From Deltaproteobacteria bacterium RIFOXYD12_FULL_56_24 (GTDB lineage Bacteria; Desulfobacterota; Desulfobulbia; Desulfobulbales; Desulfurivibrionaceae): 64,000 nucleotides of DNA. Under the pieces are notes generated by a model. That model was given only the letters and a program-made list of their open reading frames with translations, was not told where the DNA came from and did no database searches. Below are positions 3,141-64,000 of this stretch, in pieces. A program made the position numbers and the translations under genes. The stretch is from assembly GCA_001799285.1 (NCBI GenBank), contig MGTD01000013.1, positions 1 through 64,000 on the forward strand. Reading direction: 5' to 3'. Positions within the stretch are counted from its first letter, which is position 1. Each line of letters begins with the position of its first letter.

Positions 3141-3160
3141 CTGCCCAGCAGTACTAAATA

Positions 3161-3204: not shown

Positions 3205-3320
3205 GTTTTTGCCTGCGTTGTGGTGGTGCTAAGTTTACTATCGAACTATTCGTAACTGATTACAGGGTAGGCGACCAAGTTCAGCGCCGTATCCCAACTG
3301 TCTGTTTTTACTTGACCACC

Positions 3321-3707: not shown

Positions 3708-3843
3708 CCAAGCCTCCCTCTTTTTCTTGTGTGCAGAACACGTTTACTCTCATAACGCGCTTCGATGCTCTGCTCACCAACCTGACCGGTGAAAATCAGG
3801 AACTCGGGCGTGCTGTTTCAGATCAGCTTGCGCTTGCTGTCTA

Positions 3844-5772: not shown

Positions 5773-5774
5773 GC

Positions 5775-6920: not shown

Positions 6921-9325
6921 ACTCCAAACAACCTCGCCTTGGCGTCATGCATTACCTGCGCCGGCGCACCCAAGCCGCGCAAGGCATTCAAGCCGCCAGC
7001 CAGCTTGATCTCCGGCACTTCCCACAGGTTCTGACTTTCCAGCGCATCGGTGCCGCCCTGGGCGAACTGGTGGCCCAGGCCCTTAAGTACGATGGCGGCC
7101 TTGTCGTCCATACCGCTGAACCAGCCCTGGTTATGACTGATGAACAGCTCGCCACGCTCTGGGCGCTTCAGGGCGCGGGCGTGGTAGCCGTGGTGGCCGA
7201 AGAAGTCGTAGAGATCGAAGTCGTTCATCTGGTCGATCTCGCGGATCACCTCCGGACTGAAGTTGTCGCCCAGCAGGTGGTCGATCAGTTGGCGGCGCTT
7301 TTGCGCCTCGATCCACAGGGCACGGAAGTCGTCGAGGTTGCGGGCTTCCGAGACGACGCGCTGGATCACCTCGCGGCGGTACTCATCGACCGGAATCGGC
7401 GTGTCGCGGCCATCGCGGCGGCTGAGGATGAAGCGGCCCTGGGCATTGACGATGACGGATTGTCCGCCGATCTCGGCCACGGCGGGGCCGTCATCACCGC
7501 CTCCGCCGCCACCACCCGTGTCATCGCCACCACCCCCGCCGCCACCGAGACGCGGCGGCTTGGTGATGAAGTCGGTGCCGAACAGATGGGTAACATCGGT
7601 GTAGTCGTAGAGCCAGAACTTGTACTTCTGAGTTTCCTCATGGATGCGGGTGCCGCGCCCGACCATCTGGTAGAACTTGATCGGTGATTGCAGGTAGCGG
7701 AAGAACACCACGGCGTTCAGGCGTTCGATGTCCACGCCCGCTTCCAGCAGGTCCACGGTGCAGGCAATGAAGGCGCGCTCGCCGGAACCGCGCATGGGCT
7801 CGATCATGTCCGAGCCGTTGTTGGCGCCGCCCATGCACTTGAAGGCGTAGTGATCCTTGGGTGTCTGACCGCTCTCCTGGCACCAGCGCACGTATAGGTT
7901 GTTCAGGTGCTGGGTCACGCGGTCGGCGTGGATTTCGCGGGTGCAGAAGATGATGACTTTTTGTTCCGGCCCGCCGTTCTCGCACAACAATTTGAACAGG
8001 TCGGCGCACATCTTGGGCGTGCGCAGCTCGATGAACAGTTCGTCGTCGAAGTCCTTGCCGGTGTACTCGTTCTTGGTCAGGTCATTTGCGGTCAGCGGCA
8101 GGCCGGTTTTGATATCCTTGACGCCCGCCTTGAGAATTTCTTCCTTGGTGAAAGTGGCGTTGTCGATGCTGGCCTTGCGTTTGACAATTTCGCAGGCGGC
8201 AAGGTAGCCGTCTTCCTGCGCCTGAATCAGGGTGTATTCGTAGACCGGCTCGCCAAAGTACTTGCGGTTGTTGGCGGTGATTTCCTGGTCTTCGGCAGGC
8301 GCGTTTTTGGCTTCGTGCAATTGGCGCGGCGTGGCGGTCAGGCCGATGTGGATGGCATTCGGATTGCGCCTGAGCACTTCCGACCACTTGCCCCAGGCCG
8401 AGCGGTGGCATTCGTCGATGATGATGACGCTGAAGGCGTCTTCGCCGTAGTGCTCGGTCAAGAAGCTGGCAAAGCCTTCTTCATCGTCCAGACCGAGGGT
8501 TTGATAGGTGGCGATGTGGATGCGGGCGTTTTGGGCGGCGTTGCCGCCTTTTTCCGTTCGGACGATGCGGGCGTTGTCGCCAAACGCGGCCTTGAGCTTG
8601 GTATAGGCCTGCTCGCGCAATTCATCGCGGTCACACAGAAAGAGCGCGGGCTTGGGTAGTTGCCCGGCCTGACTCATGCGCCACAGCAGATTGGTGGCGA
8701 TGATGGTCTTGCCAGCGCCGGTGGCCAGCGTCAGCAACACGCGAGGCGGTTGGCCAGCCTGCTGGTCAATCAAGATTTTCTCGAAGGCGGCGCGGATTGC
8801 CGCATCCTGGTAATAACGGGAGAGCGCCCACGCAGGGCTGTCGGCCTGAAACAGCATCGCGGCCTCGGGTCGGGCCATGTTGATGCCCGTATCCTTCGCA
8901 TAACGAGCGGTCAAGTCTGGGTGCGGCGGGAAGTCTGCAAACGGAAATGGCCCTCCTTGCAGATTGGTGAAGCAATCGAACTCGCCATAGCGATGGCCAT
9001 TGGTGGCGAAGACATATTTCACATCGAAGCGTTCACAGTCGGCATAGCCCTTGGCCTGCTGCATGCCCTTGAGCGGGTCATCGCTTTCTTTCTTGGCTTC
9101 GAGCACGGCAACAGGCAGGGCTTTGGGCATCTCACCCACCTGAACACAGAGCAGATAGTCGGTACGGCCCGGGCCCTTGCGGCGGCGGCCCTTAGCGCCA
9201 CTGGGTTCCACCGGAGCCGGGGTCAGGATGGTTTCGAGAGTGATGCGTTCACGGCTGACGTAGCCTTTGTCACGCAGTACAGGGTCAATCAGATGGTAGC
9301 GGGTATCCGCCTCGTTCATGCTCAT
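6917..9325 (-). CDS. hsdR: Type I restriction endonuclease subunit HsdR
   Basis: An 802-residue motor-nuclease subunit. The N-terminal endonuclease core has the D...ExK pattern (GRTDYLLCVQVG ... PVAVLEAKKE) and the EcoEI/EcoR124-type opening. The SF2 helicase follows with Walker A LATGAGKT, DEAD-box variant DECH (IIIDECHRSAWGKW), GLTATP, and motif VI region QMVGRGTRIHE. An unusual linker of two seven-glycine runs separated by DDT occupies about residues 585-605, between helicase and C-terminal HsdM-binding region. The start at 9325 has GGGGAAAA upstream and 9319 is an alternative ATG. It is the first gene of hsdR-hsdS-hsdM-rhuM fragment. Confidence 0.94.
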   Translation of the reverse strand: MSMNEADTRYHLIDPVLRDKGYVSRERITLETILTPAPVEPSGAKGRRRKGPGRTDYLLCVQVGEMPKALPVAVLEAKKESDDPLKGMQQAKGYADCERFDVKYVFATNGHRYGEFDCFTNLQGGPFPFADFPPHPDLTARYAKDTGINMARPEAAMLFQADSPAWALSRYYQDAAIRAAFEKILIDQQAGQPPRVLLTLATGAGKTIIATNLLWRMSQAGQLPKPALFLCDRDELREQAYTKLKAAFGDNARIVRTEKGGNAAQNARIHIATYQTLGLDDEEGFASFLTEHYGEDAFSVIIIDECHRSAWGKWSEVLRRNPNAIHIGLTATPRQLHEAKNAPAEDQEITANNRKYFGEPVYEYTLIQAQEDGYLAACEIVKRKASIDNATFTKEEILKAGVKDIKTGLPLTANDLTKNEYTGKDFDDELFIELRTPKMCADLFKLLCENGGPEQKVIIFCTREIHADRVTQHLNNLYVRWCQESGQTPKDHYAFKCMGGANNGSDMIEPMRGSGERAFIACTVDLLEAGVDIERLNAVVFFRYLQSPIKFYQMVGRGTRIHEETQKYKFWLYDYTDVTHLFGTDFITKPPRLGGGGGGGDDTGGGGGGGDDGPAVAEIGGQSVIVNAQGRFILSRRDGRDTPIPVDEYRREVIQRVVSEARNLDDFRALWIEAQKRRQLIDHLLGDNFSPEVIREIDQMNDFDLYDFFGHHGYHARALKRPERGELFISHNQGWFSGMDDKAAIVLKGLGHQFAQGGTDALESQNLWEVPEIKLAGGLNALRGLGAPAQVMHDAKARLFGV

Positions 9326-9421
9326 GGATTTTCCCCACTCCCTTGCGCTTACGCCAGCGATAGATGATCCGTAACTTTAAACAAGCTGATCAGTAGTGAA
9401 AAATCCGCTGCCTTTTGATAG

Positions 9422-10105
9422 CTACAACACCACAGTCCGCTTGATGTACTTCACCACCTCCGCCGGGTCGTCCATGACCTGAAAATAGAGCAGATCGTCC
9501 TCGCTGACATACCCCTCGCTCAACATCCTCTCCTTGATCCAATCCACCATCCCGCCCCAGAAATCAGAGCCCACCAGAATGACCGGAAAACGCTTCACCC
9601 TCCTGGTCTGGATCAGGGTCAGAGACTCGAACAGCTCGTCCATGGTGCCAAAGCCGCCGGGCATCCCGATAAATGCCATGGAATACTTGATAAACATCAC
9701 CTTGCGCACGAAAAAATACTTGAAGTTCATGGGCACGTTGGTGAAGGGGTTTGGCTCCTGCTCAAAGGGCAGGTTGATGTTAAGCCCGATGGAAAGACCC
9801 TCGGCAATGGCCGCGCCTTTGTTGGCCGCAGCCATGACCCCTGGCCCGCCGCCGGTGATGATCCCGTAGCCGGCCGTAGCGAGATCAAGGGCGATCTTTT
9901 CGGCCAGCTTGTAGTAACGGTCTTCCGGCTTGGTCCTGGCGGAACCGAAGATCGACACCGCGGGCCGGCCGATGTTGGCCAGGGTGTCAAAGCCATCGAC
10001 AAACTCACTCAGAATCCTGAACAGCCGCCAGGAATCCCCCACCTGAAAATTATCCAGCGAATACTGCTGCCGTTCGTCAACTACCCCGGCCTTGGTCACT
10101 CTCAT
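9422..10105 (-). CDS. LOG-family nucleotide 5'-monophosphate nucleosidase
   Basis: A 228-residue Rossmann-fold protein of the LOG (lysine decarboxylase-like, TIGR00730) family, whose members remove ribose 5-phosphate from purine nucleoside monophosphates. Diagnostic motifs are GGGPGVMAAANKGA (about residues 88-101) and PGGFGTMDELFE (about 149-160). These supply the catalytic Arg/Glu and phosphate-binding residues in characterised members. The ATG at 10105 is preferred over a TTG at 10111 because GAGGAGA stands eight bases before it. A repeat element with GTAA-type ends lies immediately upstream of the ribosome-binding site. The cytokinin-specific activity of plant LOG cannot be assumed for a bacterium. 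Confidence 0.88.
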   Translation of the reverse strand: MRVTKAGVVDERQQYSLDNFQVGDSWRLFRILSEFVDGFDTLANIGRPAVSIFGSARTKPEDRYYKLAEKIALDLATAGYGIITGGGPGVMAAANKGAAIAEGLSIGLNINLPFEQEPNPFTNVPMNFKYFFVRKVMFIKYSMAFIGMPGGFGTMDELFESLTLIQTRRVKRFPVILVGSDFWGGMVDWIKERMLSEGYVSEDDLLYFQVMDDPAEVVKYIKRTVVL

Positions 10106-50662: not shown

Positions 50663-50717
50663 TTCCGCTTGTTCCGTGGATATTTGACCTTTGTGGGCTT
50701 ACCCCCTGATTGGTTAC
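50663..50717. repeat. Right-half MITE fragment
   Basis: TTCCGCTTGTTCCGTGGATA, TTTGACCTTTGTGGGCTTAC and CTGATTGGTTAC match the right 55 bases of the 58988-59141 element. The left half is absent. Confidence 0.7.
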
Positions 50718-50864
50718 CTTGTTCGGGCATCGCTTTTTGCCCTCCAATTGTCATTTTGCAAAAGGCTCCAGTAACTACAGACCCCAATGCTTCTCCTTTT
50801 TTCCGAGGGAGAAGCATTGGGGCGAAGGGATGTTTCCAATACTACATTGCCGTGGAAAATACCC

Positions 50865-51483: not shown

Positions 51484-51638
51484 GTAACCGTTCAGCAGCA
51501 CCAAATCTTCGGACGATCGGCCCGGCTTACGTACACGAGGTACGCAGCGCCGATCCGCTTGTCCAAATCTGCACCACTGCTGAACGGTTACAGTCCTGCG
51601 GTTTTGGTACTTTGGTGATCGTCCCGGTGAACGGTTAC
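51484..51638. mobile_element. MITE copy (155 bp), 8-bp duplication with one mismatch
   Basis: The left arm GTAACCGTTCAGCAG and an internal CTGCTGAACGGTTAC enclose a 110-bp palindrome, and a 46-base tail ends GGTGAACGGTTAC. Flanks are AGATTTTC (51476-51483) and AGGTTTTC (51639-51646). Almost identical to the copy at 54878. A further lone tip GTAACCGTTCACTAG lies near 51709. Confidence 0.82.
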
Positions 51639-51779
51639 AGGTTTTCGACCGTTTTATTATTGCGCTTGATTTATCGCTTGACAACCTGACACTCTATGGC
51701 AAGAATGTAACCGTTCACTAGGGCCAATAACCCGCAAGAATAATGCAGGATGCAACCCCGTTTTCGGAGGGTGGTGTTC

Positions 51780-52557: not shown

Positions 52558-54219
52558 GTGTTTAAACGATTCATGCCCACTGCCCCGGTGGTTTGTTCGC
52601 TGGCATTCGTGCTTTTTTCCTGCAACATGGCCATGGCCGACAATGATGGTTTTTTCTCCGACGGGGTCACCTCAAGCGATGAGCGTGCATCCGACAAGCG
52701 AGCGCAGGAAAGTAAAACCACTGCGGCAAGGGTTGCCTCCGGCCCTAAAACGCCGGCAGTGAAAACCATCACCAATTTTACCCAGGCGCTGCGTTGCATG
52801 GATGAGCTTTTCCTCGCCAATGGCAAGCAGGGCATTGTCATCACTTCATCCGGAATCCCCGATGCTACCGGTAAGGCCAAGGCCGGCGACAAGGAAATGA
52901 TGATCTCGGCCATTTCCAAAATGACCATGAAAAGTAATGCTTTCGAGTTCATCGATCTGACCCAGGGCGCATCCGGCGAAGGGGATCTGGCTTTGCTTTT
53001 TGAAATGAAGGGGATGGGCAGCACCAAGGTCCCCGATTATTACATCCGCGGCGCGGTAACCCAACTTGATGACAATGCGGTCCGGGAAAGCAAGGGCGTC
53101 GGCATCGCCTTTTCCTTTCTCGATCTGGGTTATTCCAAGGATCAGGCCTTCGATATGATTACCATGGACATGAGCATCGGCGACGCTGCCACCCGTAAGA
53201 TCATGCCCGAGACCAGTACATCCAACACCATGGTCATCACCAAGGGTGGTCGCTCGGGTGAAGCCGGCGGCAAGATCAGCAAGATGGGCCTTAGCTTTAA
53301 CAAGGATCTCAGTCGTAGCGAAGGGGTGGGCGCCGCCTACCGGACCCTCATCGAACTGGGCCTGATCGAGGCGCTGGGCAAGTTTACCCGGGTACCATAT
53401 TGGCGGTGCCTTGATATCGATTCCACCAACCCCGATCTCATCGATCAGGTGCGGGAGTGGTATGATGTGGCCAACGACAGGGAACGTATTCTTTTCGTTC
53501 AGCAAAAGCTGGCCGGGATGCGTCGCTACAAAGGTCCGTTGGACGGGGCGATAAATGCCGATCTTAAAAATGCCATTGCGGAGTACCAGGCTCAGGTCGG
53601 CCTCATTGCCGACGGGCGGTTGAACTTCGACCTTTATTTCAGCCTGAAGGACGATACGCAGAATCAGCTTGCGGCCTTGCCGATTGTGCCGCCCAAGCAG
53701 ATGGTCGTCTTACCCCGGCCACCCGCGCCTGCTCCTGCAGCCTCGCTCCAGCAGGGCCAAACGGTCACTGATCCCCAACAGCCCTCCGTCACTCATAAGG
53801 CGGCGTTTCGGATTAATCTTGCCAGCGACAGAGGCAGCAACCCCACCTACAAAGTGGGGGAGTCTCTGAACATGACCATGTCGCTGAACTCGTTGGGTTT
53901 CACTTCATGCTACTACGAGGACGTTGTTCACAATGTGGCCAGGATTTTCCCCAATCAGTTTCACCGCGATTCGATGCTCAAGGGGAATGTTCAGGTCCCC
54001 TTGCCGACCGGCGGTTTCAAGATCAGGTTTGACCAGCCGGGGCGTGAAAGGATAGCCTGTATGGGGTCTGACAAGGAACTGCTGGTTCCCACCTCCCTGG
54101 CCGGCGCCAGAGACCTCGTGCCGCTGGCGGTGAAATCTCTGGAGGAACTTACCAGTCAGTTCAAACGTCTGAATCCTGAGATGAGTACCAGTATGGTGGA
54201 GATCACCGTACAGAAATAG
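52558..54219 (+). CDS. CsgG/HfaB-like outer-membrane export lipoprotein with peptidoglycan-binding and DUF4384-like domains
   Basis: A 553-residue exported protein that I place in the CsgG/HfaB family of curli-type export channels. VLFSC at residues 18-22 could be a lipobox. LRCMDELFLANG, ITSSGIPDATGKAKAGDKEMMISAISKMT, DYYIRGAVTQLDD, GVGIAFSFLDLGYSKDQAFDMITMDMSIGDAATRKI and GVGAAYRTLIELGLIEALGKFTRVPYWRCL (about residues 70-285) follow the order of HfaB/CsgG. Two parts are added: a peptidoglycan-binding-like helix set (ILFVQQKLAGMRRYKGPLDG, about 308-364) and, after a Pro-rich linker, a DUF4384-like beta domain (412-508). Start GTG at 52558 with AAGGAGG. It leads a set of small exported repeat proteins, which fits export of fibre subunits. 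Confidence 0.75.
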   Translation: MFKRFMPTAPVVCSLAFVLFSCNMAMADNDGFFSDGVTSSDERASDKRAQESKTTAARVASGPKTPAVKTITNFTQALRCMDELFLANGKQGIVITSSGIPDATGKAKAGDKEMMISAISKMTMKSNAFEFIDLTQGASGEGDLALLFEMKGMGSTKVPDYYIRGAVTQLDDNAVRESKGVGIAFSFLDLGYSKDQAFDMITMDMSIGDAATRKIMPETSTSNTMVITKGGRSGEAGGKISKMGLSFNKDLSRSEGVGAAYRTLIELGLIEALGKFTRVPYWRCLDIDSTNPDLIDQVREWYDVANDRERILFVQQKLAGMRRYKGPLDGAINADLKNAIAEYQAQVGLIADGRLNFDLYFSLKDDTQNQLAALPIVPPKQMVVLPRPPAPAPAASLQQGQTVTDPQQPSVTHKAAFRINLASDRGSNPTYKVGESLNMTMSLNSLGFTSCYYEDVVHNVARIFPNQFHRDSMLKGNVQVPLPTGGFKIRFDQPGRERIACMGSDKELLVPTSLAGARDLVPLAVKSLEELTSQFKRLNPEMSTSMVEITVQK

Positions 54220-54261
54220 CAGGGTGTTGAAAGGATGTAACCGCTTACAGGGAGAGCCGCA

Positions 54262-54864
54262 ATGCGTTTTGTAAAAACCTTTACGATGGCGGTGGTTACT
54301 CTTCTTTTTTGCGCACGGACGGGGATAGGCGGAGAGATCATATTGTCTCCGCCGCTTGACAAGAACAGGCCGGCCAGGACTGATAACAGTGAGAAAGCAC
54401 GAAGTTATCTGAATGAAGAAACGTCCGAGACCAGCCCCCCCTCAATCGTGATCATTCCCGATTGGGAAGATGAAGGAATACTCAGCCCTCGGGTGCTGGA
54501 AATGCCGCAGGATAATCGCTCGAAGGCGCGGGATTATATCCGAAATCGAGATCCTCGCCAGGGCTTGCCGACCATCATTATTCCCCCCGCCGGTTCCAGG
54601 ACGAATCCAACCAGGGATGCGGCGGAAAAACAGCGTAACAAGGCGAGAAGTTATCTTGATGGCTGGGATGGAGCCGCGGGCATCAAGCCGGGAACTTCCA
54701 TTCAGATTGGAACAACCGTGGGTGTGGCAGGGAAGGATGGGGTCATTGTTTTCGACTGCAGCACCATCAGCAATGTGGCGGGCCGGATTGGGGACGATCT
54801 GCAATCCGGCAATGAATTCATCGTGGTGATTAACAGGAAAAATTACCGGGCTCGCTGCCGCTGA
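54262..54864 (+). CDS. Exported protein of unknown function with KARxYL repeats
   Basis: A 200-residue protein with signal peptide (FTMAVVTLLFCARTGIGG). A short motif occurs three times in the middle: SEKARSYLNEE, RSKARDYIRNRD and RNKARSYLDGW, each followed by a hydrophobic strand such as PSIVIIPDWE or PTIIIPPAG. A C-terminal domain (SIQIGTTVGVAGKDGVIVFDCSTISNVAGRI ... YRARCR) has two cysteines. No family recognised. It is 42 bases behind the CsgG-like gene and likely part of the same unit. GTAACCGCTTAC, another lone element tip, is in its leader. Confidence 0.72.
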   Translation: MRFVKTFTMAVVTLLFCARTGIGGEIILSPPLDKNRPARTDNSEKARSYLNEETSETSPPSIVIIPDWEDEGILSPRVLEMPQDNRSKARDYIRNRDPRQGLPTIIIPPAGSRTNPTRDAAEKQRNKARSYLDGWDGAAGIKPGTSIQIGTTVGVAGKDGVIVFDCSTISNVAGRIGDDLQSGNEFIVVINRKNYRARCR

Positions 54865-54877
54865 CTCTCAAGGCGCT

Positions 54878-55032
54878 GTAACCGTTCAGCAGCACCACAT
54901 CTTCGGACGATCGGCCCGGCTTACGTACACGAGGTACGCAGCAACGGTCCCCTTGTCCAAATCTGCACCACTGCTGAACGGTTACAGTTCGGCGGTTTTG
55001 GTACTTTGGTGACCGCCCCGATGAACGGCGAC
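54878..55032. mobile_element. MITE copy (155 bp) with 7/8 target duplication
   Basis: GTAACCGTTCAGCAG at the left end and CTGCTGAACGGTTAC in the interior, then a 46-base tail with a decayed end (GGCGAC). Flanks AAGGCGCT (54870-54877) and AAGGCGCG (55033-55040). About 95% identical by eye to 51484-51638. Confidence 0.82.
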
Positions 55033-55070
55033 AAGGCGCGGATGTGGGGACAAACGAAAGGGGAAAGGCC

Positions 55071-55391
55071 ATGAAAAGGATGGTATTGTTGCTTGCCGTG
55101 GTCATGCTGGCGGGGACAGCGGTTACGTTCGCCCAAGTACAGGTCGAGACCGGCGCTTACAGGGTGCGAGTCAACCCGGGCGGAGCCGTGGAGGTCAATG
55201 CCCTTCCGGGGAGTCAACCCGCAATTGGCAAAGATGTGCAAGTGGCCGGGGTCACCGTCATTAACGGCAATCTCTTTATCGATGGTGAAAAAGTACCAAA
55301 GGGCAGAACGAGCTACACGTCGAAGAAAACCGGAAAAAGCTACAAAGTCGATTGGGGTCGGGACGGGAATGTCAGCGTGGCGGAGCAGTGA
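55071..55391 (+). CDS. Small exported protein of unknown function
   Basis: A 106-residue protein with signal peptide (MVLLLAVVMLAGTAVTFA). The mature part is short beta-rich: VQVETGAYRVRVNPGGAVEVNAL, VTVINGNLFIDGEKVPKGRTSY and a Lys-rich end (SKKTGKSYKVDWGRDG). No family recognised. The ATG at 55071 has GGGGAAAGG before it. It is 24 bases upstream of the metallopeptidase gene, hence probably in one transcript. A surface or fibre accessory role is inferred only from context. Confidence 0.72.
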   Translation: MKRMVLLLAVVMLAGTAVTFAQVQVETGAYRVRVNPGGAVEVNALPGSQPAIGKDVQVAGVTVINGNLFIDGEKVPKGRTSYTSKKTGKSYKVDWGRDGNVSVAEQ

Positions 55392-55415
55392 ATTAATCGA
55401 AAGGAGATAACGGCT

Positions 55416-56318
55416 ATGACTCTGCGGCTCAATATCATTTGCGGCAAGGCGATGCTCTTGGCCTGTGGCGCCATCCTGACGCTCTTTCTAATGTCTCCGC
55501 AGTCAGCCTGGAGTACCGGCGCGGTGCCCGGCGATTTCCAGACCATTCTCAACCATCGCAGCAACGCCCTGACGATTTGGAACTATACCGGCAATCAAAA
55601 CATCTATGTCTTTGATTTCCCAGGGCTCATTCTCCAAGGGCGAACATTCAACCGGCTTACCCAGATGACCGAGCAGGTCCAGACCGGCGCAGGGTATCCC
55701 CGCGTGCTCAGCAACGAGGAGCTACTAGCTCACATGGAAGCCATCCGCCGGACCCAAGCCAACTTTGCCTTCGGTCATGACGCGCTGGTCTCCGAACTGG
55801 TGCAGTTTTACAACCTTGCCGACCGGGACAAGATCGAACTTTTCCCCGAAGAACTGGTCTTGCGGGATTTTCTTCTGGGAAATGGCCTCATCAAAACCTG
55901 GCGCGGCTTTTACCAGGCATTGCAGCCGGACGTGATCATCCTGTCAATCCCTCAGGTCCAGGATAAAAAAGCCGATGAGCCTCGGGTTTCCGAACTTGCC
56001 CGCGAGGCGATCTTTACCCATGAAATTTCCCATGGCGAATACTATACTAATCCCCACTTCGCTAACTATTGCCGTGCGTTTTGGAGTCAGACTCTCACCG
56101 ACGCCCAGCGCCAGCTTTTCTTGAAGTTCCTTGCCAACTATAACTACGCTGTCGACCAGGGCGAAATGATTGTCAATGAGATGCAGGCGTATCTCATGTT
56201 TACCCCGGACCCTCTCTCCTTTAGTGCGAGTCGACTTGGGGTAACGGAAGAGGAACTTGAGAAGATGCGGGAAGCCTTCCGCAAAGGCAAACCTCCAACC
56301 AGGCTCCCTTTGCGCTGA
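55416..56318 (+). CDS. Exported zinc metallopeptidase-like protein (HEISH)
   Basis: A 300-residue exported protein (signal peptide around MLLACGAILTLFLMSPQSAWS). FTHEISHGEYY at residues 201-210 is an HExxH zinc site. NEMQAYLMF at 254-262 gives a likely third ligand (Glu) 49 residues after the second His, the gluzincin arrangement. The flanking regions (LALQPDVIILSIPQ; VLSNEELLAHMEAIRRTQANFAFG) match no family I know. It may process or release proteins of the surface island, such as the repeat subunits or the TpsA adhesin. AAAGGAGATAACGGCT precedes the ATG. Confidence 0.75.
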   Translation: MTLRLNIICGKAMLLACGAILTLFLMSPQSAWSTGAVPGDFQTILNHRSNALTIWNYTGNQNIYVFDFPGLILQGRTFNRLTQMTEQVQTGAGYPRVLSNEELLAHMEAIRRTQANFAFGHDALVSELVQFYNLADRDKIELFPEELVLRDFLLGNGLIKTWRGFYQALQPDVIILSIPQVQDKKADEPRVSELAREAIFTHEISHGEYYTNPHFANYCRAFWSQTLTDAQRQLFLKFLANYNYAVDQGEMIVNEMQAYLMFTPDPLSFSASRLGVTEEELEKMREAFRKGKPPTRLPLR

Positions 56319-56345
56319 TTTACACCAGAATCTGGAGGAAAAAAT

Positions 56346-56654
56346 ATGAAGAAAAAATGGGCGATCTTTTGTTTATGTTTGGGCGCCTGCATGGCAGCCA
56401 GTGGCAGTGACGCACTGGCCCAGGTGAGTCAACGGACGAAAATTCAGGGCAACACCGAAATCAATGTGTCGACAGACAACACAACCGCTGTCGCTATTGG
56501 TCAAAACAATGTTGCGAAGAACAGAATCGGGGTGGTACAAGGTGACAAGAAAGGTAACACCAAAATTAACGTCAGCGCCGGCAACGTGACAACGGTGGTG
56601 AGCGGACGTAACAAAAAAGCGGTAACCAACATAGGAGGGGTCGTTAATGAATAG
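56346..56654 (+). CDS. Curlin-style repeat protein 1
   Basis: A 102-residue exported protein: signal peptide (IFCLCLGACMAASGSDALA), then two repeat units of 36 residues. Unit one has TKIQGNTEINVS and TTAVAIGQNNVAKNRIGVV; unit two, more diverged, has KKGNTKINVS and TTVVSGRNKKAVTNIGGVV. The pattern of GNT turns between short strands rich in Asn, Thr and Val is shared with the proteins at 57798 and 58277. By analogy with CsgA it may be a fibre subunit exported through the CsgG-like protein. It overlaps the next gene by eight bases. Confidence 0.75.
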   Translation: MKKKWAIFCLCLGACMAASGSDALAQVSQRTKIQGNTEINVSTDNTTAVAIGQNNVAKNRIGVVQGDKKGNTKINVSAGNVTTVVSGRNKKAVTNIGGVVNE

Positions 56655-56958
56655 GCATCCCGTACTCGTGGTCCTGGTCGGATCTTTCCTGTTGCTCTTC
56701 GTATCCCAAAACGCCGATGCCGTGCAGGGCCTTGATGCCCATGGCCAGAGCAAGGTCAGCAAGGCCATGGCGAGAAAGTGGTCGCAATCGGATCAGGGTA
56801 AGGACGGCTACAGCAATCAGCTCAACAAAAGCGTAGTCAACATCGGCAACAAAAAGTCCGGCGACTGCAACCTCAACGTGGGCACGGTACAGCCTGGGCA
56901 GAAAGCGCCAAAAGAAATCGTGGTTACCACAAAGGAAGTAATCAATGTCTGCAAGTGA
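56647..56958 (+). CDS. Small exported protein with two cysteines, possible fibre accessory protein
   Basis: A 103-residue protein with signal peptide (PVLVVLVGSFLLLFVSQNADA). The mature part has a basic helix (SKVSKAMARKWSQSDQG), then LNKSVVNIGNKKSGDCNLNVGTV and KEIVVTTKEVINVCK. The two Cys could form a disulfide. The NIGN/NVGT strands recall the neighbouring repeat proteins but there is no full repeat. The start overlaps the end of repeat protein 1, so they are coupled. Possibly a nucleator or chaperone of the fibre system; that is inference. Confidence 0.7.
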   Translation: MNRHPVLVVLVGSFLLLFVSQNADAVQGLDAHGQSKVSKAMARKWSQSDQGKDGYSNQLNKSVVNIGNKKSGDCNLNVGTVQPGQKAPKEIVVTTKEVINVCK

Positions 56959-56970
56959 GGATGAAGCATT

Positions 56971-57654
56971 ATGAAAAAAAACAATCTTAGCAGCTTTTTT
57001 GCCCGGAAAATCGTTGGCTTTGCTACCTGTACTGTTTTGTTGACGACTATCGGGTCTACCGTCTTTGCCGCTTCTGCCGATGATGCCAAGTTGAGAGAGC
57101 TGGAGCAGGCGATAAAGGTCGCCCCGAAGGCTGAAAATCCGGTCAAAAAGCCCCGAACCAGGGCCATCGTTTTTGACACTGAACCGACCGCCGCCCAACC
57201 GGCGGAAAAACTGCAGGCCCAGCCCCCGGTTAACGCCGTAGCTCAGACAGGTGTTCAGGAAAAGGATAAGGGGGGGAGGCAGCCTGTCGACTGCAGCAAA
57301 TTACCTGCGGACCCAAAGGTAACGGCCGTTGACTTTGTCATCAGCTTCAAGGTTAACAGCTCGGAAATAGCCCCATCATCCGAGGCTCTTCTCGTACAGA
57401 TCGCCAAGGTGCTTAACCTTTCTCCGGAACGGTGCGTCCTGGTGGAGGGGCACACCGATGCCTCGGGCAGTTACGAAAAAAATCTGCTTCTTTCTGAAAA
57501 CCGGGCAAATTCAGTGGTAAAATTCATCAGCGAGAAGGCTGAGGTTGACGGCAGGCGCCTGGTGGCCGTCGGCAAGGGGCCGTCTGAACCCATGAAAAAT
57601 ACCGACCCACGCGACCCCAAAAATCGCCGCGTGGTATTCAAGGTCGTCGAGTGA
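56971..57654 (+). CDS. OmpA-family peptidoglycan-associated protein
   Basis: A 227-residue protein: signal peptide ending near VFAASA (residue 34), a Pro/Ala/Gln linker (residues 50-100) and an OmpA C-terminal domain from about 115: DFVISFKVNSSEIAPSSEALLVQIAKVL, VEGHTDASGSYEKNLLLSENRANSVVKF, GKGPSEPMKNTDPRDPKNRRVVF. The Asp/Arg pair that binds diaminopimelate is present in HTDASG and NRRV. It would anchor the surface machinery to peptidoglycan. It is 12 bases behind the preceding gene. Confidence 0.88.
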   Translation: MKKNNLSSFFARKIVGFATCTVLLTTIGSTVFAASADDAKLRELEQAIKVAPKAENPVKKPRTRAIVFDTEPTAAQPAEKLQAQPPVNAVAQTGVQEKDKGGRQPVDCSKLPADPKVTAVDFVISFKVNSSEIAPSSEALLVQIAKVLNLSPERCVLVEGHTDASGSYEKNLLLSENRANSVVKFISEKAEVDGRRLVAVGKGPSEPMKNTDPRDPKNRRVVFKVVE

Positions 57655-57797
57655 TGACCGGCATCTTCCATTTTAACCCAAACAAAAGGAGGGGCAAGCA
57701 AAGGGAGGGAATGTATCGGTAGTTAGGGTGTTGTTAGATTAGTAACACAAAAAAAGTTTGTATCAAAACAACAACAAAACAAGAAGGAGACAATCCA

Positions 57798-58112
57798 ATG
57801 CGGATCCTCACCATGTTCGTCGCGTTCACCCTCATCGCAGCCCCAGCCCTGGCTCAGCAGGCCCAGCGTTCCAGCAATCCTCAGGGAGTCCAGATCCAGG
57901 GCAACACCGACATCAAGGCAAAACAGGAGAATGTTACCGCCATAGCGGTCGGTGAAGGCAACACCGCCAAAAACACCGCCGGCGCCATCAAGGGCGGCAC
58001 CCAGATCCAGGGCAACACCAACATCAAGGCTTCCCAGAAGAATGCTGCTGCAATTGCGGTAGGTAAAGGCAACAAGGCTGAGAACGCAGCCGGCGTCATC
58101 GGTGGCAATTAA
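57798..58112 (+). CDS. Curlin-style repeat protein 2
   Basis: A 104-residue exported protein: signal peptide (LTMFVAFTLIAAPALA), then two 37-residue units. Each unit reads QIQGNT-x-IKA, about eight residues, then AIAVG-x-GN-x-A-x-N-x-AG-x-I. GNT/GN turns occur every 18-19 residues, giving four strand-turn-strand steps, the kind of periodicity seen in curlin and other beta-solenoid amyloids. The DNA of the repeats is almost identical to the next gene, which points to recent duplication or conversion. GAAGGAGAC precedes the ATG. Confidence 0.8.
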   Translation: MRILTMFVAFTLIAAPALAQQAQRSSNPQGVQIQGNTDIKAKQENVTAIAVGEGNTAKNTAGAIKGGTQIQGNTNIKASQKNAAAIAVGKGNKAENAAGVIGGN

Positions 58113-58276
58113 CATCAGGCATTAGTACCGTAAGCCATTGTCAAAAAATAACATGGCCATTTTAGGCGGCAAGATGGCATAAGGAGCCCTACAGTAGCAA
58201 CATAACTGACCATGCCGTCTCTGAACGGCTCCTAAGTTTTTTTAGCCGATCAACTACTTTTTCAGGAGGATAGATC

Positions 58277-58618
58277 ATGTGGAATAAAGTTTTTTGCGCA
58301 GCGGTATTGACCCTTTTCATGGCTGGAAGTGCATTTGGCCAGGCTTCTCAGGCAGGGCCGCGGGGAGGCATGTACTCGCCGAACGCCCAGGGGGTGCAGA
58401 TCCAGGGCAACACCGACATCAAGGCCAAACAGGAGAATGCCACCGCCATAGCGGTCGGTGAAGGCAACACCGCCAAAAACACCGCCGGCGCCATCAAGGG
58501 CGGCACCCAGATTCAGGGCAACACCAGCATCAAGGCCAAACAGAAGAACGCTGCCGCAATTGCGGTAGGTAAGGGCAACACCGCTGAAAACGCGGCTGGG
58601 GTCATTGGCGGTAAGTAA
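58277..58618 (+). CDS. Curlin-style repeat protein 3
   Basis: A 113-residue exported protein with a different signal peptide (VFCAAVLTLFMAGSAFG) and N-terminal leader (QASQAGPRGGMYSPNAQG) but the same two 37-residue units: QIQGNTDIKA, TAIAVGEGNTAKNTAGAI and QIQGNTSIKA, AAIAVGKGNTAENAAGVI. It is probably a paralogous fibre subunit. CAGGAGGATAGATC precedes the ATG. In the 164-base gap before it, GGAGCC and GGCTCC enclose a loose hairpin followed by a T-run (58180-58242), so this gene may have its own expression level. Confidence 0.8.
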   Translation: MWNKVFCAAVLTLFMAGSAFGQASQAGPRGGMYSPNAQGVQIQGNTDIKAKQENATAIAVGEGNTAKNTAGAIKGGTQIQGNTSIKAKQKNAAAIAVGKGNTAENAAGVIGGK

Positions 58619-58987: not shown

Positions 58988-59141
58988 GTAAGCGATCACA
59001 GGGCACCATATCTTGCGGCGATCGGTCCGGCTCACGTACAAAAGTACGCATCGCCGTCCCGCTTGCCGCAATCTGCGGCACCCTGTGACCGCTTGTTCCG
59101 TGGTTATTTGACCTTTATGGGTTTACCCCGTGATCGGTTAC
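58988..59141. mobile_element. MITE copy (154 bp) with perfect 8-bp duplication
   Basis: GTAAGCGATCACAGGG at the left, CCCTGTGACCGCTTG inside, and a 46-base tail ending CCCCGTGATCGGTTAC. GTTCCGAG flanks both sides (58980-58987, 59142-59149). It stands between the terminators of the curli-like unit and the tpsB start; the tpsB promoter must lie inside or right of it. Confidence 0.88.
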
Positions 59142-59267
59142 GTTCCGAGCACATAAATATTGGGGCACTATTAACAAGGAGCGGCTGGTTTTATTATCTG
59201 TACTTGCCTAAAGTTATACTTGACCTTACGCGTTCATCAATTTTTGCATCTGCCAGAGGAAAAAACC

Positions 59268-60887
59268 ATGGTAAAATTCTTAGTGACAGGGATGGTCGTT
59301 ATTGGGCAACTATTTCTGGTTCAGCCTGTTCTGGCGCAAACTCCCCGGTTTGATATCACCGGCTTTAGCGTAGAAGGCAACACCCTGCTCACTGATGCCC
59401 AGATTCAGCAGGCGCTTGCACCATTTGTCGGGCCCGAGCGGGAAATGGCCGATATCAACAAGGCGGCGGAAGCCCTGCGCGTGGCCTATCGTGAAGCCGG
59501 CTATCCGGTGGTGCAGGTATTCCCTCCCGAACAAACAAGCAGCGACAAACAGATTTTGCTTAAGGTTCTGGAAGGCAAGATCAAATCTGTCACGGTTGTC
59601 GGCAATACGGCCTACGATGAGGCCAATATCCGCGCCAGCCTGCCACCCCTGAAGGAAGGGGCCAGCCCGCACGTCAACCGCTTGGAGGCTGCCATTGCTC
59701 TGGCTAATGAAAATTCCGCCAAACAGGTTGGGGTTAATTTTCAGCCGGGAACCCTGCCCGGCGAGCTTGAGGCCAAGGTGAACGTGACTGAAGAGCAGGT
59801 TTCCAAATATTTTGTTACCGCCGACAATACCGGGAGCCGCTCCACCGGTTATCCCCGAGTCGGTCTGGGCTTTCAGCACGCCAACCTGTTTAATCTTGAC
59901 CATGTGTTGACCATGCAATATCTAACCTCGCCTGAGTATGTGGACAAAATTGCTAGCTACAGCATAGGCTACCGCATCCCGTTTTATGACTATGGCATGG
60001 CTCTTGATCTGTTGGGGGCCTATTCCGACACGGAGGTGGTTAATACCTCGACCCCGGCAGGGCAGATGAATTTTACCGGCAAGGGTGCCATGCTGGCAGC
60101 CCGCCTCAACCAGGCTCTGGCAAGCATTGGGGATATTCGCCATAAGCTTATTTATGGCATTGAATACAAGGATTTCAGTAACGACGGCACCATTAACGGC
60201 TCAGCCCCGGGCGGAACCTGGGGTTCGGTCAGTTCGCAACCGCTCAGCCTCTCATATGCCGCCCAGGTAGCCCGCCCCACCTTTCAGACCAGCGGCAGTG
60301 TCGGTTTTTTTGTCAATCTGCCGGGGGGCCATAGCGGTAGTGACTCCGACTATACCGCTGCCCGTAACGGTTCAGAGCCGGAGTGGAACCTCTGGCGCCT
60401 GAATGGCTCCGTAGGTGTGCCCCTGCCGCAAGACTGGCAGACCAGGATGACGGTCAGCGCCCAGATCACCGAGGATATACTCATCCCAGGTGAACAATTT
60501 GGCGCCGGCGGCGCCACCTCGGTGCGGGGCTACAACGAGCGGGTAACCTCGGGGGATGAGGGCATTACCGCGAATTTTGAAATCTACACCCCGGAACTAA
60601 GCCAGTATTTGTTCTTGCCTGGCTCCCAGTTGCGCGCCCTGGCCTTTTGGGATCTTGGCGTAGTTGCCAAAAATGGCGACCTGCTGGCCAACGAAAGACG
60701 AAGCCAGAACCTCGCCAGTCTCGGGGTTGGCCTGCGCTTCAACTATATGAAAAACCTCAACGCGAAGTTTGATCTGGGCTGGGCCCAGCAACATATCGAA
60801 TCCTCCGATTCACCGCCCAAGAATCTTGGCGAAAGAAATGACGTGCGGGCCCATTTTTCCCTATCCTACGTTTTCAATCCTTTTTAG
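59268..60887 (+). CDS. Two-partner secretion transporter TpsB (FhaC/ShlB family)
   Basis: A 539-residue outer-membrane Omp85-type transporter. The signal peptide ends near VLAQ (residue 25). POTRA 1 opens with FDITGFSVEGNTLLTDAQIQQAL and POTRA 2 with KIKSVTVVGNTAYDEANIRASLPPL. A 16-strand barrel follows with the conserved L6 motif VRGYNE (in GATSVRGYNERVTSGDEG) and a C-terminal Phe. It threads the TpsA partner across the outer membrane. The ATG at 59268 gives the signal peptide; AGAGGAAA is upstream. tpsA starts 13 bases after its stop. Confidence 0.92.
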   Translation: MVKFLVTGMVVIGQLFLVQPVLAQTPRFDITGFSVEGNTLLTDAQIQQALAPFVGPEREMADINKAAEALRVAYREAGYPVVQVFPPEQTSSDKQILLKVLEGKIKSVTVVGNTAYDEANIRASLPPLKEGASPHVNRLEAAIALANENSAKQVGVNFQPGTLPGELEAKVNVTEEQVSKYFVTADNTGSRSTGYPRVGLGFQHANLFNLDHVLTMQYLTSPEYVDKIASYSIGYRIPFYDYGMALDLLGAYSDTEVVNTSTPAGQMNFTGKGAMLAARLNQALASIGDIRHKLIYGIEYKDFSNDGTINGSAPGGTWGSVSSQPLSLSYAAQVARPTFQTSGSVGFFVNLPGGHSGSDSDYTAARNGSEPEWNLWRLNGSVGVPLPQDWQTRMTVSAQITEDILIPGEQFGAGGATSVRGYNERVTSGDEGITANFEIYTPELSQYLFLPGSQLRALAFWDLGVVAKNGDLLANERRSQNLASLGVGLRFNYMKNLNAKFDLGWAQQHIESSDSPPKNLGERNDVRAHFSLSYVFNPF

Positions 60888-60900
60888 GAGATGCGCTGAT

Positions 60901-63900
60901 ATGACACCTCACAAGAATCGTATCTCTCAGGTCGTCTTCAGGTCAATTGTTATCGGGCTTGCCCTCGGCTTTGCCCCGACCGTGCATGCCAACCCCATTG
61001 CCCCCGCTGTGGTAAGCGGCTCAGCCACCATTGCCACCTCCGGCAACACCATGACCGTAACCAATACGCCCGGTGCCATCATCAACTGGCAGCAGTTCAA
61101 CATCGGCCAAAGCGAGATCCTCAAGTTTATCCAGCAATCCGCCCAGTCCAGCGTGCTTAACCGGGTGATCAGCCAAAATCCCAGCCAGATCCTTGGCACC
61201 CTGCAATCCAATGGCCGGGTATTTTTGATCAACCCCAGCGGGGTGATGTTCGGCCAGGGCTCCATCATCAACGTCAACGGTCTGGTCGCTTCCACCCTTA
61301 ACATCAGTGATAGCGATTTTCTGCTCAACCGTTTCAATTTTATCGGCAGCAACAGCGCCTCCGTAATCAACAAAGGTGAAATCACCACCCCGCTTGGCGG
61401 CAGCGTCTATCTGATCGGCAACAGCGTCAGCAACGAAGGGGTGATCACCTCGCCCAAGGGTGAGGTGATCCTCGCGGCAGGCAACAGCGTTAGCCTGCTT
61501 GATACCGGCACCCCGCATGTTACGGTTACCATCAACGCCCCGGACAACCAGACGGTCAACCTTGGCCAGATCGTGGCCGAAGGCGGCAAGGTTAATATCT
61601 ACGGCGCCCTGCTCAACCAGCAGGGCCTGATCAGTGCTGACAGCGCCAGCCTGGATGCCCAGGGTAATATCGTGCTCAAGGCCAGCCAGTCTCTTACCCT
61701 GGGGCAAGGCAGCGTAACCACGGCCAACGGCCCGCAGGGCGGCACGATCACCGCGCAGGCAAGCGCGGGCAAGACCACCGTCTCGGGCCGGGTGGAGGCC
61801 ACGGGCACTGGCAGCGGTGGCGGCATCAGCCTGCTTGGCAACGAGGTCACCCTGACCGACACGGCGCGAATCGATGCCTCGGGCAGCACCGGCGGCGGCA
61901 CGGTGCTGGTGGGCGGCGATTTTCAGGGCAAGAACGCGGCGGTGCAGAATGCGCAGATTACCTATCTGGCACAGGGGGCATCCATCAAGGCTGATGCTGT
62001 AAACAGTGGCGAGGGCGGCAAGGTTATCGTTTGGGCCGATGAGGCCACCGGCGCTTTTGGCAATATCTCGGCCAAAGGAGGTGCCTTTGGCGGGAACGGC
62101 GGGTTCGTCGAGGTTTCCGGCAAGGAGTATCTGGAATTTGATGCCCGGGTTGACACCAGCGCCCCGTTTGGCAATGCCGGCACCCTGTTACTTGATCCGT
62201 CCAATATTACTATTATCAGCGGCAGCGCTGATCCTACCTCAGGTAGTTTTTCGAATGGCACCTTCTATGGCGATACAAGCGGCACCTCCACGATTACCTG
62301 GGGCAACATCGAAACCCAGCTCGCCAGCAACAACGTGACAATTCAAACTGGCTCCTCCTCCGATGGTGGAGCTGGCGATATCAACGTTTCTGGTTCTCCC
62401 AGCGCAGCCAGTCTGACCATCAGCCACACCGCACCCTGGGATACCTGGGACAGTACCTATACTAATACACTTTACAGCAGCAGCAACAACCTGTCCCTGC
62501 TGGCTGAAAATGCAGTGAATATCTATGCTCCGTTTGGCAACGCTGGTAGCGGGGCGATCACAATCATTGCCGGCTGGAATGGTAACCTTACCACTCCGGA
62601 TCTTGTGACTAACTACACTGAGGGGAAGAACATCAACTTTTTGAGTTCTTATTCATCCCAGAATGGCAATATCATAGCCAATACCGGTGCCCTGACTTTA
62701 AAGGCGGCTGACACCATCCTGTTTATTCCCGGTGCAAATTCACCTTATATGCCAGGGACAAACAGCGCTTCAATTGACATGAACACCGGGGCCTTAACCT
62801 TGGTCGCCAACAAAATATCCCTTGATGCTTCCGGTGCCGCAAGCAACACGAGGGCCTCAATCCAGACCAATGGCGATCAATCTTTTACCATCGGCAGATC
62901 TGGCGGCGAGCTCTATGACGGGCTTTATCTTTTGGCCGCTAACGGAGATAACATCTATGGTGGTCAAGCCCAGATCAGACGTTTTGGCGGCAGTGGCGGG
63001 CAAAGCTTTACCTTTAACAATGGCAGCGACCTGATCCTTACAGGTGGCGCCGGTAATGGCCTTGTCCCTGCCGGCTGGTGGACAGGCAATTGTGCCAGCG
63101 GCGATTGCAGCGGAAACAATGCCGACATTGACAACTATGGCGCTGGCAATCAGACCTTTACCTTTGCCAGTGGTGGCGCCCTCCAGCTTGAGGGTGGTTC
63201 AAGGGGCAACAATAACGGGGCCTGGATTGAGAGTAGCACTGCTCAGGTTATTTCCGGCAATCCGGCCATCACCCTTACCGGCGGCAGTAGCGGCGGAATA
63301 ATGACGGCAGCTGGTTACGTGTTCGAAAATGATGCCGGGTTAGAATCCAATGTCAGCCAGACCATTGATGCCGCCTCCATCACGATGAATGGTGGGGACG
63401 CCGATTACGGTGGCGCTTATCTGGTTGCCCCGGTGCAGACTATTACCGTTACGGGCAATGTCAGCCTGACCGGTGGCGATGCAGAAGTACCCACTGCCTT
63501 TGACCACGACGGAGATCCTGTCTTAACCACCGGGGTGGTCATCGGGGCTGGTGATGAAGACAGCACTTCCCATACCTTAACTCTCACAATCGGCGGCAAC
63601 CTGACCTTGCAAGGCGGGGAAGTCAATAATTATGGCGGCTCTCTTGCCTTGATCGGCGGTTTCCGTATCCCTGCAACCTTAACGATTGACACTACGGGCA
63701 GCATCGACCTGAACGGCGCCGGCGCCGGTCGCGATCAGATCGGTTCCTATGGCGGTTATGGCGGCAGCGTACATCTTCACTCCACCGGCGGTTATATCGA
63801 TATAGGTCAAGGCTTTGTGGGCACTGGAACAACAGGAACTACACACATTGAAGCCCAGACTACGATATCACAAGCAGTCGGAGGTCAGGTTCAAACTGGA

Positions 63901-64000
63901 GGCTTGGTCATGAAAGCCGATGGCACCATTGATGCCCTCGGTAATTTGACTGCAAATGCAAATGATGTGGAACTGCTTAGCACCCATGGCAATCTAAATA
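60901..64000 (+). CDS. Large filamentous-haemagglutinin-like TpsA exoprotein, 3' end beyond the window
   Basis: The reading frame is open from 60901 to the last base (over 1,030 codons) with no stop. A signal peptide (FRSIVIGLALGFAPTVHA) is followed by the TPS secretion domain: ATSGNTMTVTNTPGAIINWQQFNIG, SQNPSQILGTLQSNGRVFLI and NPSGVMFGQGSIINVNG (about residues 45-135). A long beta-helix follows, with repeated strands of the GGxxTLTGGxA type, very rich in Gly, Ser, Thr and Asn. From about residue 420 repeats such as AGTLLLDPSNITII mark the FHA/HMW-type stem. It would be exported by TpsB as an adhesin or surface fibre. AGGAGATG lies before the ATG. Confidence 0.9.
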   Translation, partial: MTPHKNRISQVVFRSIVIGLALGFAPTVHANPIAPAVVSGSATIATSGNTMTVTNTPGAIINWQQFNIGQSEILKFIQQSAQSSVLNRVISQNPSQILGTLQSNGRVFLINPSGVMFGQGSIINVNGLVASTLNISDSDFLLNRFNFIGSNSASVINKGEITTPLGGSVYLIGNSVSNEGVITSPKGEVILAAGNSVSLLDTGTPHVTVTINAPDNQTVNLGQIVAEGGKVNIYGALLNQQGLISADSASLDAQGNIVLKASQSLTLGQGSVTTANGPQGGTITAQASAGKTTVSGRVEATGTGSGGGISLLGNEVTLTDTARIDASGSTGGGTVLVGGDFQGKNAAVQNAQITYLAQGASIKADAVNSGEGGKVIVWADEATGAFGNISAKGGAFGGNGGFVEVSGKEYLEFDARVDTSAPFGNAGTLLLDPSNITIISGSADPTSGSFSNGTFYGDTSGTSTITWGNIETQLASNNVTIQTGSSSDGGAGDINVSGSPSAASLTISHTAPWDTWDSTYTNTLYSSSNNLSLLAENAVNIYAPFGNAGSGAITIIAGWNGNLTTPDLVTNYTEGKNINFLSSYSSQNGNIIANTGALTLKAADTILFIPGANSPYMPGTNSASIDMNTGALTLVANKISLDASGAASNTRASIQTNGDQSFTIGRSGGELYDGLYLLAANGDNIYGGQAQIRRFGGSGGQSFTFNNGSDLILTGGAGNGLVPAGWWTGNCASGDCSGNNADIDNYGAGNQTFTFASGGALQLEGGSRGNNNGAWIESSTAQVISGNPAITLTGGSSGGIMTAAGYVFENDAGLESNVSQTIDAASITMNGGDADYGGAYLVAPVQTITVTGNVSLTGGDAEVPTAFDHDGDPVLTTGVVIGAGDEDSTSHTLTLTIGGNLTLQGGEVNNYGGSLALIGGFRIPATLTIDTTGSIDLNGAGAGRDQIGSYGGYGGSVHLHSTGGYIDIGQGFVGTGTTGTTHIEAQTTISQAVGGQVQTGGLVMKADGTIDALGNLTANANDVELLSTHGNLN

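Follow-up and report, generated by a model that had tools for sequence, protein, structure and literature searches.

Does a run of nine genes in a contig of the Desulfobulbales encode a machine for exporting surface fibres and, if so, is that machine curli, Fap or neither? The locus lies in a 64,000-nucleotide stretch of contig MGTD01000013.1 from Deltaproteobacteria bacterium RIFOXYD12_FULL_56_24, here called the window. In surveys of functional amyloids, curli are recognised by their curlin repeats together with csg neighbours, and Fap by the fap genes (PMC3521004; PMC12822426), and GTDB has been screened by these criteria (PMC12822426). A CsgG-fold system with other subunits and helpers would therefore escape such surveys. 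The genes of the locus are as follows.

52558..54219, + strand: CsgG-like gene (553 aa), putative outer-membrane export protein, assessed by Pfam, NCBIfam and comparison of an AF2 model with the PDB
54262..54864, + strand: X1, exported, family unassigned, with a C-terminal motif shared with most betaproteobacterial loci
55044..55391, + strand: X2, small, β-rich, exported, with relatives known at related loci
55416..56318, + strand: HEISH gene, exported putative gluzincin-type zinc metallopeptidase
56346..56654, + strand: rep1, repeat protein, candidate nucleator or cap (CsgB/FapB-like role)
56647..56958, + strand: Cys protein, small, exported
56971..57654, + strand: OmpA gene, with signal peptide, OmpA-family peptidoglycan anchor (PF00691)
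57798..58112, + strand: rep2, Cys-free, with two 37-residue repeats, candidate for the main fibre subunit, AF2 model
58277..58618, + strand: rep3, tandem duplicate of rep2 and likewise a candidate main subunit

The reading frames of all nine genes are open at these coordinates. A first-pass annotation had the strand and the positions right, but counted eight genes instead of nine. It had also assigned signal peptides to all of the locus proteins and, judged by eye, each of the nine does begin with a hydrophobic, signal-peptide-like stretch. A scan of the locus for terminators and promoters gave results no better than those for shuffled sequences.

By its predicted structure, the first gene product is a CsgG-fold protein. 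When its AF2 model was compared with the PDB, ranks 1 to 18 were all CsgG (E 3.1e-6 to 1.6e-4, prob 1.00). The sequence scores are below the curated cut-offs, both for PF03783 (CsgG; E 0.022, 14.5 bits compared to a cut-off of 20.8, and 16.1 in a second scan) and for NCBIfam HfaB (E 2.7e-4, 20.2 bits compared to 300). For the CsgG-like identity proposed earlier, the match is thus strong in fold and sub-threshold in sequence. Only four of the 27 CsgG-like relatives match PF03783 at E<=0.01, the best with E 0.0022. The CsgG fold (residues ~70-285) is followed by a peptidoglycan-binding domain (309-357; PG_binding_1, 3.7e-6) and by DUF4384 (430-506; 2.1e-12), and both of these domains are present in 27/27 relatives. 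The description of the protein as an export lipoprotein is doubtful. The lipobox of the window copy is atypical (LFSC, but AMA|D as well), the same-genus orthologue has no Cys at the LFSC position, and a regular expression found no lipobox in 31 of the 35 members of the clade; alphaproteobacterial relatives mostly have one. Unlike E. coli CsgG, the protein is thus probably not lipid-anchored, which counts against a fibre-exporting role.

The repeat proteins would be the material of the fibre. Structure prediction, proposed earlier as a check, gave a confident, layered model for rep2 (pLDDT ~88-95 over residues 31-100), in which eight strands, four per repeat, form predicted stacked 37-residue β layers. 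The rep2 and rep3 genes are 90% identical over 231 nt, and several near-identical subunit genes per locus are found. Cys is absent from all 33 rep2/rep3 relatives. A Foldseek comparison of rep2 with 350,542 PDB chains placed three bacterial amyloid fibrils, FapC (9nqd), CsgA (8enq) and FapC (9u4u), at the top, none of them significantly (best E 0.54), and PDB profile searches with rep2/3 and with a single repeat gave nothing useful. The repeats had been called 'curlin-style', but the resemblance is one of motif only: PF07012 (curlin repeat) has no match at E<=1 among 33 members of the repeat family, and 17 of 150 column shuffles scored as well as or better than the window repeats against a CsgA repeat profile. 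The motif is likewise suggestive of FapC, although direct kinship is not established, because the score of the FapC profile (hhalign 12%, score 15.6) barely exceeds the best of 150 column shuffles (15.2) and the HMM score of the FapC repeats is inside the shuffle range. The family search also returned weak matches to YadA heads. β-Solenoid repeats occur in non-amyloid surface proteins too, and this counts against reading the repeats as fibre subunits.

No CsgB had been recognised at the locus, but rep1 may be its counterpart. The C-terminus of rep1 relatives forms a conserved two-Cys cap (C-x-N-I-G ... C), and all 23 other aligned members contain at least two cysteines. The window copy contains none; in this sequence the cap is lost, a point against the nucleation model.

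The rep1 gene had been described as coupled to the gene for the small Cys protein, and the start of the latter indeed overlaps the end of the former. C74 and C102 of the Cys protein are invariant in 26 aligned sequences, including a divergent relative from Azospirillum lipoferum; a PDB profile search with this protein gave nothing useful. Homology between rep1 and the Cys protein through their C-terminal two-Cys modules was considered and rejected, since profile comparison aligned the N-terminal parts alone, and the 'C...NIG...C' likeness is therefore one seen by eye only. X1, which has no match in Pfam or NCBIfam scans, contains a short repeated internal motif (N-x-x-K-A-R-x-Y-L ... P-T-I-I-I-P) and a C-terminal module with two Cys (C-x-x-x-x-N-V-A-G-R-I-G-D-D ... 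R-C). The ATG at 55071 is a likelier start for X2 than position 55044. The N-terminal half of several X2 relatives contains one subunit-like repeat, which is not visible in the window X2; the repeat-unit HMM matches 6 of 34 X2 relatives at E<=1 and 0 of 680 shuffles. The OmpA protein carries PF00691 at residues 126-218 (E 6.9e-19), and its gene adjoins the CsgG-like gene in Azospirillum too.

The HEISH protein had no match in Pfam, NCBIfam or the PDB. Its residues H202, E203, H206 and, 52 residues on in NEMQAYL, E255 are invariant in 20 relatives, which thus have the gluzincin combination of HExxH with a downstream Glu ligand. The protein is a putative exported zinc metallopeptidase of this type, and peptidase activity would be expected from its sequence. 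The metallopeptidase and the OmpA protein were rightly singled out as non-standard partners; both are constant companions across the loci.

The nine-gene block recurs, in the same order and on one strand, in G013/UBA11700 and ~25 other genomes, so the locus is more than a chance assembly. Co-occurrence across genomes had been named as a check, and of 30 related loci whose sequence extends far enough, 26 have all six core genes, nearly all of them in Betaproteobacteria. The carriers of the block are mainly Betaproteobacteria of soil and sludge, among them the sludge bacterium Accumulibacter, together with two Desulfobulbaceae. Giesbergeria anulus, Rhodocyclus purpureus and Propionivibrio dicarboxylicus are carriers available in culture. 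In the Alphaproteobacteria the core is reduced to the repeat, Cys and CsgG-like proteins, often with OmpA. The system had been proposed to belong to the bacterial group of the window, which its distribution does not support: only 2 of 17 genomes of this genus have the block, and the same two alone carry the peptidase among 243 genomes of the order. As the copies of this genus also nest inside the betaproteobacterial clade, the block was probably acquired by the window's lineage.

Other families of the order do contain related loci (L017, L020-L023), where other CsgG-like proteins (23-28% identity) stand beside exported proteins with related 36-residue repeats. The window repeat unit matches the repeats of these long proteins with hhalign 77% and E 2e-5, better than 150/150 column shuffles. 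In these loci a partner that we read as LPP20-like replaces the HEISH, Cys and OmpA proteins, and the repeat proteins reach 1172 aa.

The locus might instead encode an envelope module that makes no fibre: the CsgG-like/DUF4384 protein, OmpA and the peptidase would monitor the cell wall or mend it, and the repeat proteins would be soluble β-rolls of the periplasm or the cell surface. HEISH relatives elsewhere adjoin OmpA without a CsgG-like gene, in one case beside a T6SS gene and otherwise also near kinase genes, and the pair may thus form a module that primarily serves some other function. Several relatives have CHASE2-cyclase, caspase-like and FecR-like genes nearby, and non-secretory proteins such as FlgT and HpaA also have CsgG-like folds. 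This explanation is nevertheless unlikely, given that the rep genes accompany the CsgG-like gene constantly in Betaproteobacteria and often in Alphaproteobacteria, and that their repeat units are predicted to stack.

About equally improbable is a complex akin to the Caulobacter holdfast anchor HfaABD, in which the pore and the small repeat proteins would form a short surface anchor for a polysaccharide or an adhesin and no long fibre. In Caulobacter, surface HfaA (CsgA-like, forming SDS-resistant multimers) and HfaD require the CsgG-like HfaB (PMC6707917), and the locus shares with HfaABD a CsgG-like protein with small putative surface proteins, here of two repeats each. The HfaB match is, however, far under its cut-off, the rep1 family matches no HfaA-type NCBIfam family, the gene set differs (OmpA, HEISH and Cys proteins are foreign to HfaABD), and multiple near-identical subunit genes suggest a bulk polymer. 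A TpsA/TpsB adhesin pair adjoins the window locus, but such a pair is beside only 2 of 36 loci, and it was therefore left out of the system.

Canonical curli is rejected, as the locus has no curlin repeats, the CsgA profile scores at shuffle level, and CsgE and CsgF, reported missing earlier, are indeed absent from 15 whole genomes of carriers (an E. coli control was positive). It is very improbable that these are strongly diverged true curli, with repeat proteins derived from CsgA/CsgB and X1, X2 and the Cys protein as unrecognised CsgE, CsgF and CsgC/H, since the CsgG fold, a curlin-like G-x-G-N-x-A motif and the second rank of the CsgA fibril are outweighed by these absences and by a repeat of 37 residues compared to about 22. 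The locus shares with curli (CsgBAC-DEFG) a CsgG-fold pore protein, small repeat proteins predicted as stacked β layers and a minor repeat protein as a possible nucleator. It differs in the two extra domains of its CsgG-like protein, in the mostly missing lipobox and in the added HExxH peptidase, OmpA and Cys proteins. Fap of Pseudomonas (FapABCDEF) has repeats of 35-40 residues (PMC12392863), a comparable length, and shares the G-x-G-N-x-x-x-N motif and a protease gene within the operon. That protease is the cysteine protease FapD, whereas the locus has a metallopeptidase; the Fap exporter is FapF and not a CsgG-fold protein, and the locus subunits consist of two repeats and lack the long linkers. 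Neither FapF nor the C39-like FapD was found in Pfam and NCBIfam scans of the nine proteins.

We therefore consider it reasonably probable that the locus is a nucleation-precipitation system of the CsgG type (type VIII-like) that has subunits, an anchor, a nucleator-like protein and a metallopeptidase of its own. Most likely, the small repeat proteins leave through a pore of the curli type and assemble into a fibre on the cell surface. The curli-like reading of the first-pass annotation is upheld in the fold, the coupled repeat proteins and the co-occurrence of genes; secretion and the fibre itself we infer. Because the curli helper genes and curli-type subunits are missing, this looks like a separate and so far undescribed fibre system. 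Sec would carry all of its proteins into the periplasm. An oligomeric outer-membrane pore formed by the CsgG-like protein would let unfolded rep1, rep2 and rep3 through; the peptidoglycan-binding domain of this protein, together with OmpA, would hold the pore to the cell wall, a tether that may stand in for the lipid anchor that this clade has lost. Rep1, with its disulfide-capped end in relatives, would start or end the fibre, which would grow by layer-wise addition of rep2 and rep3. The Cys protein, X1 and X2 may be caps, adaptors or chaperones replacing CsgE/F/C, and the metallopeptidase might clear or process subunits stuck in the periplasm, similar to a role suggested for FapD. The fibre could serve adhesion or form a biofilm or floc matrix.

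More tentatively, and at somewhat less than even chances, the system could be a third class of functional amyloid beside curli and Fap, defined by subunits with 36-37-residue repeats, a CsgG-type pore tied to peptidoglycan rather than lipid-anchored, and a dedicated metallopeptidase. It would be widespread in Beta- and Alphaproteobacteria and handed on to Desulfobulbaceae, with the long-repeat loci as a second branch. If fibres are made, the system asks what a CsgG pore needs, as CsgE and CsgF are missing here and most of the clade probably lacks a lipid anchor. It would also provide a new candidate for a structural matrix protein of bacteria that form flocs and biofilms, for instance Accumulibacter and Azonexus.

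Nine open reading frames, all on the + strand, were confirmed from 52558 to 58618 of the window:

52558-54219, + strand: CsgG-like protein
54262-54864, + strand: X1, exported protein
55044-55391, + strand: X2, exported protein
55416-56318, + strand: HEISH protein, putative HExxH peptidase
56346-56654, + strand: rep1, repeat protein
56647-56958, + strand: Cys protein
56971-57654, + strand: OmpA protein
57798-58112, + strand: rep2, repeat protein
58277-58618, + strand: rep3, repeat protein

The proteins had been proposed to be exported, and N-terminal signal sequences are recognizable by eye in all nine. The seventh contains an OmpA domain (Pfam, 6.9e-19), and a Pfam scan of X1, X2, HEISH, rep1, Cys, rep2 and rep3 gave nothing meaningful. 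Rep2 and rep3, which share 231 nt at 90% identity, are, judging from their sequences, a tandem duplication. Within the genome the repeat family is confined to the block, at three places. A 156-bp palindromic interspersed repeat (about 40 copies genome-wide; 47 matches including reverse-strand hits) lies at 51484-51639 and, between X1 and X2, at 54878-55033. A 56-nt direct repeat (89%; 50665-50720 and 59089-59144, about 8.4 kb apart) flanks the whole region and could belong to some other dispersed element. Directly 3' of the block is a two-partner secretion pair, TpsB and TpsA (59268-64000), with TpsA continuing beyond the window end. Among the other related loci, L047 of Rhodocyclaceae CTSoil_117 alone has such a pair (2185-9713), which there lies a short distance upstream of the block.

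The first protein contains DUF4384 (Pfam, 2.1e-12) and PG_binding_1 (Pfam, 3.7e-6) domains, present in all 27 relatives scanned. Its supposed likeness to CsgG and HfaB is sub-threshold in sequence (CsgG, Pfam E 0.022; HfaB, NCBIfam) but emerges for CsgG from the fold. The AlphaFold model, built from 30 relatives (mean pLDDT 71.5), scores low at residues 173-193, where a membrane hairpin would be expected, and solved CsgG chains occupy ranks 1 to 18 among its matches (E from 3.1e-6, probability 1.00). The modest TM-scores (0.39-0.50 by target length) and an aligned identity of 12-17% thus describe a CsgG fold, yet one distant from CsgG in sequence. The first-pass annotation called the protein an export lipoprotein; the model supports the CsgG fold, but the lipid anchor is doubtful. 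The same-genus orthologue has a signal region devoid of Cys, and of the 35 proteins in the window-holding clade 31 lack a lipobox by regular expression, a trend rather than proof because some start sites are uncertain. Outgroup proteins (Rhodocyclaceae with the divergent arrangement, Azospirillum) mostly have the lipobox.

Scanning GTDB with the alignment of CsgG-like proteins yielded 143 relatives, from which 80 loci were kept. The proposed co-occurrence of the genes holds for a core of six (CsgG-like, HEISH, rep1, Cys, OmpA and rep2/3), complete on one strand in 26 of the 30 window-clade loci with enough downstream sequence; most of the 26 have X1 and X2 too. Three of the four exceptions carry the CsgG-like gene without the core, and the fourth is complete but for rep2/3. 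Among the carriers are Sulfurimicrobium, Rhodoferax, Sulfuritalea, Gallionella, Propionivibrio, Accumulibacter, Azonexus and Giesbergeria. The same-genus genome G013 (L037) has the nine genes in the same order, with 39-82% identity and no TPS neighbours. Five betaproteobacterial loci (L070-L072, L076, L093) have the block divided into two divergent units. In Alphaproteobacteria, for example Azospirillum lipoferum, profile searches place rep1-like genes, often together with Cys-like ones, immediately upstream of the CsgG-like gene, or show OmpA adjoining it. A tenth small exported protein, X3, lies between X2 and HEISH in many betaproteobacterial loci and is absent from the window and from G013. 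Recurring neighbours of several related loci (L016, 12511-18147, and flanks of L044, L063, L071, L072 and L075) are a CHASE2 adenylate/guanylate cyclase, a protein without a Pfam match that we take to be FecR-like, a caspase-like protein (C14), an alpha/beta hydrolase and one protein without assignment; this set is absent beside the window's block.

The notion of a fibre system of this bacterial group is not supported, as the core is mainly betaproteobacterial. The CsgG-like gene was found in 2 of 17 same-genus genomes and the HEISH gene in 2 of 243 order-level genomes, in both cases the window's genome and G013, although some genomes surveyed are incomplete MAGs; a phylum sample of 395 genomes added one weak CsgG-like match. 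In a quick maximum-likelihood tree of the CsgG-like proteins, the two Desulfobulbaceae join Sulfurimicrobium, Rhodoferax and other betaproteobacteria in a seven-member group with full support, nested in a larger betaproteobacterial clade. Acquisition of the block from Betaproteobacteria is the simplest reading.

The subunit repeat is 36-37 residues long, with the consensus Q-I-Q-G-N-T-x-I-x-A-x-x-x-N-x-x-A-V-A-V-G-x-G-N-x-A-x-N-x-x-G-x-I. AlphaFold predicts rep2 with pLDDT of about 88-95 over the repeats, each forming four strands in the same register. The PDB structures closest to rep2 by Foldseek are three fibrils, of FapC, CsgA and again FapC, a likeness that is not significant at E 0.54-1.8. 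The description of the repeats as curlin-style holds for a motif only: the repeat proteins have no curlin match, and the repeat profile scores no better against CsgA repeats than column shuffles do. Against FapC repeats it scores 15.6, just above shuffles (15.2), and the resemblance to Fap is unproven. Against the repeats of long exported CsgG-neighbour proteins of the same order it reaches 22.6, clearly above shuffles (17.5), so that the nearest sequence kin are other CsgG-associated 36-residue repeats. These long proteins, of up to 1172 residues and about 30 repeats with a profile related to the window's, neighbour CsgG-like lipoproteins of other families (L017, L020-L023), near whose genes are also what we take to be LPP20-like proteins.

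All 23 other aligned members of the rep1 family end in C-x-N-I-G ... C, whereas the window's rep1 has lost both C-terminal cysteines (56617-56654); their joint loss fits a paired disulfide, and this rep1 is possibly specialised or decaying. The Cys protein has two invariant cysteines, X1 has a two-Cys module at its C-terminal end, and one subunit-like repeat is found in 6 of 34 X2 relatives versus 0 of 680 shuffles. The HEISH protein matched no known family; its invariant H202, E203, H206 and E255 fit a putative gluzincin. HEISH relatives also occur directly downstream of OmpA without a CsgG-like gene (L034, 7836-9759; L035, 8206-9753), one of these pairs lying on a Pseudoroseomonas plasmid next to a Ser/Thr kinase, the other on a Paraburkholderia plasmid next to what by eye is a TagF-like T6SS gene.

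CsgG paralogues outside curli operons have been noted as a larger family (Dueholm et al. 2012, PMC3521004), and a survey across GTDB from 2025 made curlin or Fap repeats in the vicinity of csg/fap genes a requirement (PMC12822426). In the open-access literature searched, DUF4384 is named in only five papers, and by title or abstract none of them deals with secretion. No description of the window's gene set was found in the open-access literature, which is not proof of absence. The system would work like the curli/Fap type, yet by the membership tests it does not qualify as either. The CsgG fold, the gene set, its conservation and the missing curli parts are the established part of the mechanism. 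The CsgG-like protein would form a pore, the subunits would be exported, and fibres would be nucleated and grow; the HEISH protein may act as a peptidase, and the system as a whole would have a matrix function.
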